From: Flavobacterium sp. N2270
Lineage (GTDB): Bacteria > Bacteroidota > Bacteroidia > Flavobacteriales > Flavobacteriaceae
Direction: 5' to 3'
Assembly: GCF_025947225.1 (NCBI RefSeq)
Contig: NZ_CP110005.1
Coordinates: forward strand, 186,001 to 250,000
DNA length: 64,000 bases
Positions 51,394 to 53,795 of this stretch are shown here, one piece after another. Position numbers and translations under genes: made by a program. The first letter of the stretch is position 1. Every line of letters begins with the position of its first letter. The notes beneath the pieces are model-generated. The model had not been told where the DNA came from. It saw only the letters and a list, made by a program, of their open reading frames with translations, and searched no databases.

Positions 51394-52065
51394 ATGAAAA
51401 TGCATTTTGCCTTTCTTTTTATTCCGATTTTATTTTGTTGCCAAAAAGAGCAATCACTACCTACTGATATAAATAATGTAACAATTAACAATATTACAGG
51501 AACAGAGCAAAGAATTAAACCAATTGAAAATCCAATTGACTTTTATCAAAAACTTTCTAATGCAGCAATATCTATTATTGACCCTGAAATAGTTTACACG
51601 CCAGCTTATGTTGTCATAAAATATCCAAATGGAGACGTTCCTCCAAAAACAGGGGTTTGCACTGATGTTATTATTCGTGCATATAGAAAACTTGATATTG
51701 ATTTACAAAAAGAAGTGCATGAAGATATGAAGGCAAATTTTTCAAAATATCATAACTTAAAAAAATGGGGATTAAAAACTACTGATAAAAATATTGATCA
51801 CAGAAGAGTCCCAAATTTGGAAGTTTTTTTCGAACGAAAAGGAGAGAAATTGCCTATAACAGACAATCCAGATGATTACAAAACAGGTGAGATTGTTTCT
51901 TGGCTTTTAACAGGTGATGCAATTCCTCATATTGGAATTATTACGAATTTAAAATCTAAAGACGGAAAAAGACCAATGATTGTTCACAATATAGGTAGCG
52001 GACAAGTTTTAGAAGATTGTTTACTGAATTGGAAAATTGTGGGGCATTTTAGGTATGGTGAATAA
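51394..52065 (+). CDS. DUF1287 lipoprotein (NlpC/P60-like)
   Basis: The 223-residue protein begins with a lipoprotein signal ending in ILFC (Cys15). The mature region matches DUF1287: GVCTDVIIRAYRKL with probable nucleophile Cys89, KTGEIVSWLL and IPHIGII with His179. This fold suggests a cell-wall or amide hydrolase on the periplasmic side; the substrate is unknown. Its stop lies 10 bases before the GIY-YIG cassette. Confidence 0.85.
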   Translation: MKMHFAFLFIPILFCCQKEQSLPTDINNVTINNITGTEQRIKPIENPIDFYQKLSNAAISIIDPEIVYTPAYVVIKYPNGDVPPKTGVCTDVIIRAYRKLDIDLQKEVHEDMKANFSKYHNLKKWGLKTTDKNIDHRRVPNLEVFFERKGEKLPITDNPDDYKTGEIVSWLLTGDAIPHIGIITNLKSKDGKRPMIVHNIGSGQVLEDCLLNWKIVGHFRYGE

Positions 52066-52075
52066 TCTAGACACA

Positions 52076-52434
52076 GTCATTGCGAGGCACGAAGCAATCT
52101 AAATAATCATAACATCTTTAATATCTTCAAACAAATCATCCCAATTGGGGTTCATTTTTTCAATTAATTCTATTTTAGCTTTTCTTGAACCACCTTTTAA
52201 TTGTTTTTCCCTAGAAATGGCATCACCAATCATTTGGAATTGCTCATAATAAACTAGTTTATTTAAATTATATCTAGCAGAAAATGAGTTTTGAAATCTT
52301 TTCTCTCTGTGTTCTATAATTCTATTTGGTAAATTAGAAGTTACACCAATATACAATGTTGTATTGGAATGATTTGTAATAATATAAACAAAACCTGGCT
52401 TCATTTTTTAGATTGCTTCGTTCCTCGCAATGAC
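52076..52434. mobile_element. GIY-YIG cassette bounded by 25-bp terminal inverted repeats
   Basis: The left end (52076-52100) reads GTCATTGCGAGGCACGAAGC plus AATCT, and the right end (52410-52434) is its reverse complement with a single mismatch. Between them lies only a 101-codon GIY-YIG gene, whose stop codon is inside the left repeat and whose start is 5 bases from the right repeat. The 359-bp unit is inserted between two convergent genes, 10 bases from one stop and 5 from the other. No target duplication is obvious. The terminal repeat resembles the GTCATTGCGAGG...GAAGCAATCT repeats that I recall as dispersed in many bacterial genomes. Confidence 0.75.
52099..52404 (-). CDS. GIY-YIG nuclease domain protein
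   Basis: The 101-residue product is a stand-alone GIY-YIG domain: MKPGFVYIITNHSNTTLYIGVTSNLPNRIIEH contains the GIY-like (VYIIT) and YIG strands and the conserved arginine, and REKQLKGGSRKAKIELI carries the catalytic-glutamate region. Related small proteins (UPF0213/YhbQ-like) are common and mostly uncharacterised; some cut or bind structured DNA. Its frame is held within two terminal inverted repeats, so it probably belongs to a mobile cassette. Confidence 0.9.
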   Translation of the reverse strand: MKPGFVYIITNHSNTTLYIGVTSNLPNRIIEHREKRFQNSFSARYNLNKLVYYEQFQMIGDAISREKQLKGGSRKAKIELIEKMNPNWDDLFEDIKDVMII

Positions 52435-52439
52435 GCTGA

Positions 52440-53795
52440 TTACTCAATCAACGTTTTTACCTCATCAAAATTCAACCCGCCATAATTTCCAGAACTCATT
52501 AAAAGCAAAGCTGAATTATCAAAGTTTTGAGCAAATAAGAAATCTTTAAATTCTGTTGGATTGGTGTAAATAATTAAATCGTCTCGTTTAAAAGACTGTG
52601 CAATTTGGTCGTAGGTTACTTCTTCTAATTGTTTAATTTTCACAGCATCTGGCGAATAAAAAACAACGGCGACGTCTGCCGATTCTAAAGCGCCTTCGTA
52701 TTCTTTTAAAAATTCAGCATTTAAACTAGAATACGTGTGTAATTCTAAACAAGCGATTAATTTTCTGTCTGGATATTGATTTTTAACCGCTTTTGTAGTG
52801 GCTGCAACTTTACTTGGCGAATGTGCAAAATCTTTGTAAGCAACTTTACTATTTCCTTCTGCAATTTTTTCTAAACGTTTGCTTGCACCTTTAAAAGTTG
52901 CAATTGCTTCATAGAAATCAGCTTCGTCAATTCCCATATTTTGGCAAATCCATTTGGCACCAGCTAAATTATTTAAATTATGCGCTCCAAAAACTTCAAT
53001 AGGCATTGGTCCGTCTGGAGTTTCTAATAATGTAATTCCATTTTCTACCGAATATTCTGGAGTTAAATATGGAATTCTTCTAATTTGGTTTTCGGTTTCT
53101 TCGGCTACTTGTTTTACAGTTACATCTTCTTCATTATAAACTAAAATTCCACCTTTTGTAATTTGATTGGTAAAAATTCGAAATTGTTCTACATAATTTT
53201 CAAATGTTGGAAACACATTTATATGATCCCAAGCAATTCCTGATAGCAAGGCAATATTTGGTTGATATAAGTGAAATTTCGGTCGTAAATCCATTGGTGA
53301 AGACAAATATTCATCACCTTCTAAAACAATAAAATCGTTATCTTCTGTAAGGTGAACCATCGTATCAAAACCTTCAAGTTGTGCGCCAACCATATAATCG
53401 ACCTCAACATTATGATAATGCATTACGTGTAAAATCATTGAAGTAATTGTTGTTTTTCCGTGAGAACCACCAATTACCACTCTGGTTTTATCTTTCGATT
53501 GTTCGTATAAAAACTCTGGATACGAATAAATTTTCAAGCCTAATTCTTGTGCTTTTAATAATTCTGGATTATCTGCTTTTGCGTGCATTCCTAGAATAAT
53601 TGCATCAATATCGGTAGTGATTTTCTCTGTAAACCAACCCATTTCATTTGGCAACAATCCTTTTTTCTCTAAACGTGATTTTGAAGGTTCAAAAATAGCG
53701 TCGTCACTACCTGTAACTTTATATCCTTTATCATGTAATGCCAATGCTAAATTGTGCATTGCTGCTCCGCCGATGGCTATGAAATGTGTTCTCAT
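52440..53795 (-). CDS. mpl: Mur ligase family protein, Mpl-like
   Basis: The 451-residue protein has the three-domain Mur ligase plan: N-terminal nucleotide-sugar binding (MRTHFIAIGGAAMHNLALALHDKGYKVTGSD), the ATP loop GSHGKTTITSM, and the C-terminal domain with FAHSPSKVAATTKAV. The sequence resembles Mpl, which reattaches L-Ala-D-Glu-mDAP tripeptide to UDP-MurNAc in peptidoglycan recycling. MurC is the main alternative. It ends 5 bases from the GIY-YIG cassette. Confidence 0.85.
   Translation of the reverse strand: MRTHFIAIGGAAMHNLALALHDKGYKVTGSDDAIFEPSKSRLEKKGLLPNEMGWFTEKITTDIDAIILGMHAKADNPELLKAQELGLKIYSYPEFLYEQSKDKTRVVIGGSHGKTTITSMILHVMHYHNVEVDYMVGAQLEGFDTMVHLTEDNDFIVLEGDEYLSSPMDLRPKFHLYQPNIALLSGIAWDHINVFPTFENYVEQFRIFTNQITKGGILVYNEEDVTVKQVAEETENQIRRIPYLTPEYSVENGITLLETPDGPMPIEVFGAHNLNNLAGAKWICQNMGIDEADFYEAIATFKGASKRLEKIAEGNSKVAYKDFAHSPSKVAATTKAVKNQYPDRKLIACLELHTYSSLNAEFLKEYEGALESADVAVVFYSPDAVKIKQLEEVTYDQIAQSFKRDDLIIYTNPTEFKDFLFAQNFDNSALLLMSSGNYGGLNFDEVKTLIE

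Follow-up and report, generated by a model that had tools for sequence, protein, structure and literature searches.

A stand-alone GIY-YIG nuclease gene between inverted hairpin repeats in Flavobacterium: a candidate minimal REP-type mobile element

A 359-bp unit at positions 52076-52434 of the window, the whole 64,000-nucleotide stretch of Flavobacterium sp. N2270 DNA that was analyzed, is made up of two inverted ends and one 101-codon GIY-YIG gene, with no other content. We consider it probable that this unit is a minimal REP-type mobile element, whose nuclease would act on its own hairpin ends and would feed a pool of short non-autonomous pairs. By comparing sequences we show that such genes are bracketed by hairpins, that the hairpin stems covary, that nucleases match their cognate repeats, that the repeats are dispersed, and that units are present, absent or decayed at orthologous sites. 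A wider proposal may follow, that a GIY-YIG nuclease of ~100 residues and two coevolving hairpin ends form a new class of transposable element over many bacterial phyla, the autonomous driver of orphan CGTC REPs and short pairs and, at ~360 bp, among the smallest autonomous mobile elements; on this we are evenly divided.

Two convergent genes flank the unit, which occupies the gap between them. The left neighbor (51394-52065, + strand; an ORF with a match to PF06940, E=2.2e-67) encodes a DUF1287 protein and stops 10 bp short of the element, and the right neighbor (52440-53795, - strand; an ORF matching PF08245 and PF01225) encodes a Mur-ligase-family protein, called mpl in an earlier sequence-only reading of this DNA. 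The left end (52076-52100, + strand) carries an outward GTC head at 52076-52078 preceded by A (AGTC), a stem of ATTGC/GCAAT at 52079-52083 and 52094-52098, a 10-nt loop and the tail CT. The right end (52410-52434, - strand) is the same hairpin inverted, its GTC head (52434-52432) also outward and preceded by C (CGTC). Both ends fit GTCATTGCGAGGNACGAAGCAATCT exactly and differ solely at N (C/A), an identity of 24/25, and no match to the inverted-end pattern was found in 100 shuffles of the window. A repeat search extends the arms to 32 nt each, the left at 52076-52107 (+) and its partner at 52403-52434 (-), 94% complementary and separated by 295 nt. The nuclease gene (52099-52404, - strand; ORF and Pfam) begins with ATG, five bases (TTTTT) from the right end, and stops within the left repeat: the 25-mer covers two bases of the TAG, and the 32-nt repeat covers the whole codon. 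The sequence-only reading had described this layout, 25-base ends reverse-complementary with one mismatch, nothing but a 101-codon GIY-YIG gene between them, a stop codon in one repeat, a start five bases from the other and a convergent gene on each side, and it was accurate throughout.

Each arm is itself a hairpin, with a 5-bp stem that begins A-T and a 10-nt loop, on the plan GTC-stem-loop-stem-CT. The single ends of the window fold weakly (-2.4 kcal/mol, z of -0.53 and -0.87), and fold stability was unremarkable both here and in locus L008, so the hairpin claim rests on covariation. An Rfam search of 51900-52600 at E<=1 gave no match, nor did PADLOC.

The window protein matches Pfam GIY-YIG with E=4e-14, together with weak profile matches to TIGR01453 and T5orf172. 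In an alignment of 15 diverse members Tyr-8, Tyr-19, Gly-21, Arg-29, His-33, Glu-66 and Asn-85 are invariant, and we take these to be the catalytic motif residues of GIY-YIG. Among solved structures, the profile matches just two chains at E<=0.01, PDB 1zg2 and 1ywl, both stand-alone GIY-YIG proteins of the UPF0213/COG2827 type. Over 425 non-independent pairs (>=70% identity, dS 0.05-1.5) the median dN/dS was 0.10 and the maximum 0.36, ratios that indicate purifying selection on the nuclease genes.

Bracketing by hairpins extends well beyond the window. We read the flanks of 87 GIY-YIG matches, found in 35 of 60 genomes (the window's own included), and in 32 of 89 ORF hits the highest-scoring inverted repeat across the gene reached at least 40, as opposed to 0.4% of 1780 same-geometry draws from the same loci. 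Hairpins with a GTCA head occurred at 3.0/kb beside 78 distinct GIY-YIG genes (taken from 92 ORF hits after identical genes and those under 60 aa were dropped) versus 0.51/kb elsewhere in the same loci. Searching plasmids with the window protein by tblastn returned 33 records at up to 58% identity, among them Rhizobiaceae, Sphingobium, Novosphingobium, Azospirillum, Neisseria, Aeromonas, Photobacterium, Planktothrix and Spirosoma. In the 16 records that were fetched, mostly one per species, the best inverted repeat scored at least 46 in 12, 34-35 in two and 15-16 in two; GTC heads were present in 11 of the 12 strong cases, the arms of L139 being without one. The Neorhizobium gene has CGTCATCCTCGGGCTCGACCCGAGGATCCAC on one side and a one-base variant on the other, and in Azospirillum lipoferum the unit is located between sufB and sufC.

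A scan of named genomes with the 15-member alignment as query was evaluated on the best 80 of at least 574 confirmed loci, whose titles cover alpha-, beta-, gamma- and deltaproteobacteria, Anaerolineae, Nitrospirae, Ignavibacteriales, Omnitrophus, candidate phyla, Armatimonadota and Bacteroidota. Among these best 80, 53 had an inverted-repeat score of at least 40 (null, 0.4% of 1600 draws). Outward GTC hairpins with 6 bp or more flanked the gene on both sides in 41 (null, 6 of 1600), and at least one outward GTC hairpin was found in 68. Pooling all samples gave 245 distinct GIY-YIG genes (counted as distinct domain sequences from loci shorter than 20 kb, five of them in open frames above 200 aa, stop to stop), of which 195 carry a flanking GTCA hairpin and 107 an outward pair; the two nearest outward stems are identical in 75 of these pairs and differ in 32. 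The same pairing of gene and hairpins in such distant bacteria points, as a pattern of sequence, to a very small mobile element. The 50 genes with no GTCA hairpin nearby count against this explanation, as do the 32 pairs whose nearest stems differ.

Two further arrangements were seen in these loci. On the Planktothrix plasmid (L131, 1221-1970) tandem hairpin arrays and repeated half-ends surround a GIY-YIG gene that is flanked by an MmeI-type restriction gene and drmA; comparison gave such arrays instead of a clean empty site. Another GIY-YIG lineage, of ~83 aa and with few or no GTC hairpins, lies 3' of tRNA-Val(TAC) in all seven loci with a tRNA among eight scanned (L078, L085, L087, L088, L090, L094 and L096). 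Downstream, four of the seven carry a copy of 34-40 nt from the tRNA 3' end; L087 has 12-nt copies only, and L078 and L096 have none by the same test. In L085 and L087 the gene is present in tandem copies. This lineage looks like a tRNA-3'-end cassette, and it too counts against the mobile-element explanation.

The hairpins fall into stem types (ATTGC, ATTTC, ATTCC, ATGCT, ATCCC, ACCCC and more), each with its own complement. Covariation was assessed on arms found solely as inverted repeats across the gene, which avoids selection for pairing. The 5' stem was complementary to the downstream NNNN-TC of its own arm in 42 of 60 arms from the host genus/order sample (1000 shuffles: mean 10.8, maximum 20) and in 44 of 55 other arms (shuffled mean 11.3, maximum 19), which shows at the sequence level that the stems change with compensation. 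Stem type also follows the nuclease lineage. On a FastTree phylogeny of 186 of the 245 genes, restricted to labels occurring at least twice, the stem label changes 47 times, whereas 300 shuffles gave 112.7 changes on average and never fewer than 105; the corresponding values are 22 versus 62.4 (minimum 57) for the 108 genes of the host genus/order sample and 25 versus 35.2 (minimum 31) for the 76 others.

The sequence-only reading had proposed a search for further ends, and this yielded seven matches at up to three mismatches in the window's own 2.79-Mb genome, where the reversed-pattern control gave none, and 1834 type-1 copies in 249 genomes of the host genus. Two of the seven are the window pair itself; the other five lack a partner end within 1.5 kb when as many as five mismatches are allowed, and one of these solitary ends (L006) has a decayed inverted partner by eye. 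Another (L005, near 1450) adjoins a different short repeat, CCCTCGACTGCGCTCGGGATGACGG, which is presumably a dispersed repeat. Short stand-alone GIY-YIG genes number three in the same genome, alongside three matches within longer frames. Around the second (C1:839557), the type-2 nuclease of this genome (C1:839542-839841), the inverted ends are of other sequence, GTC-ATTTC...GAAAT; the third (C1:465641) is accompanied by two hairpins that look decayed by eye and differ again in sequence.

Across the 249 genomes we scored the type-1 nuclease at E<=1e-26 and the type-2 nuclease at E<=1e-32, and counted type-1 repeats with up to two mismatches and type-2 repeats exactly, both counts including the nuclease's own ends; the reversed-pattern controls for both types gave none among the matches listed. 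The type-1 nuclease is present in 50 genomes and the type-2 nuclease in 81, and dispersed copies number up to 189. Nuclease 1 is associated with repeat 1 (AUC 0.86) and hardly with repeat 2 (0.57), and nuclease 2 with repeat 2 (0.84) more than with repeat 1 (0.63, p 2e-4), statistics that ignore kinship within the genus, as do all copy-number associations given here. Median counts of repeat 1 and repeat 2 were 9 and 0 in the 29 genomes with the type-1 nuclease only, 1.5 and 14 in the 60 with type 2 only, 20 and 11 in the 21 with both, and 0 and 0 in the 139 with neither. In a model including genome size and the Y1_Tnp count, each nuclease predicts its cognate repeat (t=9.2 for type 1, 6.5 for type 2) but not the other (-0.9 for nuclease 1 with repeat 2, 0.8 for nuclease 2 with repeat 1); leaving the nuclease's own two ends out of the counts lowers the cognate values to 7.2 for type 1 and 3.7 for type 2. 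For type-2 repeats, genome size outweighs the other predictors (t=10.1), a result that weighs against the mobile-element explanation. Each nuclease type predicts its own repeat and, once genome size is corrected for, not the other's.

Repeats also occur where the nuclease is missing. At least 10 type-1 repeats are present in 33 of the 199 genomes without the type-1 nuclease, and of the 139 genomes with neither nuclease 32 have at least five copies of repeat 1 and 22 at least five of repeat 2. Loss of an autonomous copy would explain type-1 repeats without their nuclease, and another mover would do so too.

In the host genus the repeats are found both solitary and as head-outward pairs, in line with the dispersed non-autonomous pool that had been suggested from the window alone, and their numbers track the cognate nuclease. 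The fetched loci contain 89 distinct head-outward pairs of up to 160 bp, 66 of them 60-109 bp long. Genome G180 has five type-1 pairs 73-78 bp apart. In six genomes most of the listed matches are explained by a ~102-bp pair from G159 together with its spacer (61-102 each among the matches listed, with identities mostly 74-96% and some places counted on both strands). Some gene-less pairs keep pieces of the nuclease gene in or beside them and therefore derive from a full unit: in G258, 23 nt of the gene start are retained in or beside a hairpin pair, and in Sinorhizobium meliloti the gene end lies between two hairpins. The base before the left GTC of the 89 pairs is T in 74%, C in 21%, A in 4% and G in 0%. 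Target duplications, which the sequence-only reading had asked for, did not emerge from these 89 dimers, as flank repeats of 2-9 nt never exceeded the largest of 200 shuffles. Elsewhere in the genus (G153, C1:2391398-2541775), 20 type-1 repeats lie in one orientation (20 forward, 0 reverse), 16 listed repeats falling within ~150 kb of a 4-Mb genome.

The site between the DUF1287 and Mur-ligase genes is polymorphic. Among the matches listed for the 249 genomes, the alignment of G215 spans the unit and that of G255 covers part of it, and in the remaining genomes the listed alignments start at or just before the Mur ligase. G255 has both ends as a short pair with the gene absent; in G172, G189 and G113 the DUF1287 and Mur-ligase genes are adjacent without a type-1 end, the empty sites that the earlier reading had called for; and G013 holds a broken GIY-YIG unit of another kind, whose ends differ as well. 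G262 has a full unit ~0.9 kb from its Mur ligase, around which several type-1 hairpin pairs with similar spacers form an array (L159, 1000-2630). With the unit missing from the same intergenic place in several relatives and a gene-less pair in one, the suggestion of a very small mobile cassette gains support; a fixed position in all relatives and no ends elsewhere, the observations named beforehand as speaking against it, are not what we find. A second site in the genus carries a full unit in G159, G125 and G137, a decayed one in G258, type-2 pairs in G224 and G144, and no cognate end in G065. Full and empty states were also seen in Shinella and Sphingobium plasmids, gain and loss being judged by parsimony only. 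Three Shinella plasmids, TYG72 and TYG65 are empty sister sites with neither gene nor cognate end, and two Sphingobium plasmids and Sinorhizobium K101 (L144, L146, L289) have a double-headed hairpin at the gene-less site, one head being CTC in K101 (L289). Such double-headed hairpins are as a deletion between repeated half-stems would leave them, and may be excision or deletion scars. In a 50-kb Sphingobium comparison a hairpin pair is present in two strains and absent in one, in flanks too diverged for exact borders.

The strongest rival to a mobile element is homing into REP pairs, which we regard as unlikely. Something else would spread the pairs, and a GIY-YIG homing endonuclease would cut its cognate repeat and insert between the hairpins, recognizing the repeat without moving it; recognition of the repeat by the nuclease is required here too. 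Homing would suit the position of the gene in place of the short spacer of head-outward pairs, the identity of the two nearest stems in 75 of 107 cases, and the gene-less sites with a double-headed hairpin (the two Sphingobium plasmids and K101) or a short pair (G255). It sits poorly with the sister sites that have neither gene nor cognate end (G065, the three Shinella plasmids, G172, G189, G113, TYG72 and TYG65) and with the nuclease-gene pieces in or beside gene-less pairs, by which some pairs derive from a full unit. Copy number that tracks the cognate nuclease also speaks against it, although homing would likewise favor repeat-rich genomes.

We find it improbable that a Y1 (RAYT/IS200-like) transposase moves the repeats in trans while GIY-YIG genes just gather in tolerant intergenic spots. 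Y1_Tnp is present in 184 of the 249 genomes and its count predicts type-1 repeats in the model above (t=4.9), as this proposal would have it, but of the best 30 Y1_Tnp loci none shows an outward pair and two show a hairpin of any kind, as against 54 and 116 of 146 GIY-YIG genes (flank windows differing slightly). Neither the stem type that follows the nuclease tree nor the double dissociation between nucleases and repeats is predicted by hitch-hiking, and the 0 of 30 outward pairs agrees with Di Nocera et al. 2013 (PMC3733652), who found CGTC repeats flanking no tyrosine transposase gene. Least probable of all is service to the host as a small repair or structure-specific nuclease without mobility, the hairpins being terminators or its own regulatory sites. 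In its favor, the nuclease is under purifying selection, and small COG2827 genes of Caulobacter crescentus, one with an SOS box, are discussed as possible repair enzymes in PMC1839093. Against it, presence is patchy (50 of the 249 genomes for type 1, 81 for type 2) and at differing sites, hairpins with outward heads occur on the upstream side of the gene and not just the downstream side, and dispersed copies number up to 189.

For the mobile element that we favor, we propose that the ~100-aa nuclease would recognize its own hairpin sequence and nick or cut at the hairpin foot, the hairpin probably being single-stranded or extruded at replication when cut. The unit, or a short gene-less pair, would then be copied or pasted elsewhere without target duplication. 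To our knowledge GIY-YIG enzymes do not join DNA ends, and re-insertion would therefore need host functions. Gene-less pairs would spread in trans, as REPINs do with RAYTs, by an unrelated enzyme. The proposal names a specific candidate, and it predicts for each hairpin the nuclease that would act on it. If it is true, a transposon-like cycle can run on a GIY-YIG nuclease of ~100 residues, and many small genes annotated as UvrC-like, hypothetical or "GIY-YIG nuclease family" gain a function.

Several known systems share parts of this design. GIY-YIG homing endonucleases (I-TevI type; T5orf172, Seg) have the same catalytic domain, whereas the present gene has ~100 residues, is intergenic, lies between hairpin-repeat ends and has no intron or intein that we could find; a group I intron homing endonuclease was rejected on the intergenic position and on the lack of an Rfam match at E<=1 in 51900-52600. 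The stand-alone proteins 1zg2 and 1ywl were deposited as hypothetical proteins, and we know of no repeat association for either. A DDE-type MITE or IS was set aside, the 89 dimers having no target-site duplication. The closest parallel in organization is REP/RAYT (TnpA_REP), with its REPINs and REPtrons, where an enzyme gene flanked by hairpin ends likewise accompanies a dispersed pool of paired hairpins. RAYT systems are not known to make target duplications, and none was found for the GIY-YIG unit. The enzyme here is GIY-YIG (PF01541) rather than an HUH Y1 transposase, the two folds being unrelated, and the heads are CGTC/TGTC rather than GTAG; identity with REP/RAYT was rejected, since the element encodes no Y1 and none of the best 30 Y1_Tnp genes of the genus sample has an outward GTCA pair.

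In the literature, Di Nocera, De Gregorio and Rocco 2013 (PMC3733652) report CGTC-tagged REPs in five phyla including Bacteroidetes, apparently without a dedicated transposase, and count C. crescentus among the positive species; PMC1839093 (2007) describes three small COG2827 genes of unknown role in C. crescentus. "GIY-YIG" is absent from the text of PMC3733652, a 2025 REP survey (PMC12306157) contains neither "GIY" nor "endonuclease", and the passages of PMC9465073 and PMC10928387 that carry GIY-YIG and REP terms use them unconnected with each other. Among the titles and abstract starts listed by searches of an open-access library, none linked GIY-YIG genes to REPs.

The ends of the nuclease units resemble CGTC REPs in their CGTC or TGTC head, a stem that opens with complementary A-T positions, head-to-head dimers, and occurrence in Bacteroidetes and alphaproteobacteria. 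Host-genus ends differ in that stems are often 5 bp, loops often 9-10 nt and tails of kinds such as CT or CAC. In the window the right end has the CGTC tetranucleotide but the left end AGTC, and the 5-bp stem, 10-nt loop and tail CT(A) depart from the CGTC REP form, whereas the relatives L128, L133, L136 and L137 have its stem and loop; window-type repeats are nonetheless dispersed in many copies and form head-to-head dimers, as CGTC REPs do. Judged by sequence, the window ends are a divergent kind and not strict members of that family. In Neorhizobium, Shinella, Rhizobium, Aeromonas and Azospirillum the ends beside the nuclease gene match its 8-9-bp stem, 4-5-nt loop and CCA tail. The ends in many Proteobacteria fit the CGTC REPs, and the GIY-YIG nuclease is a candidate enzyme for a repeat family that has been without one.
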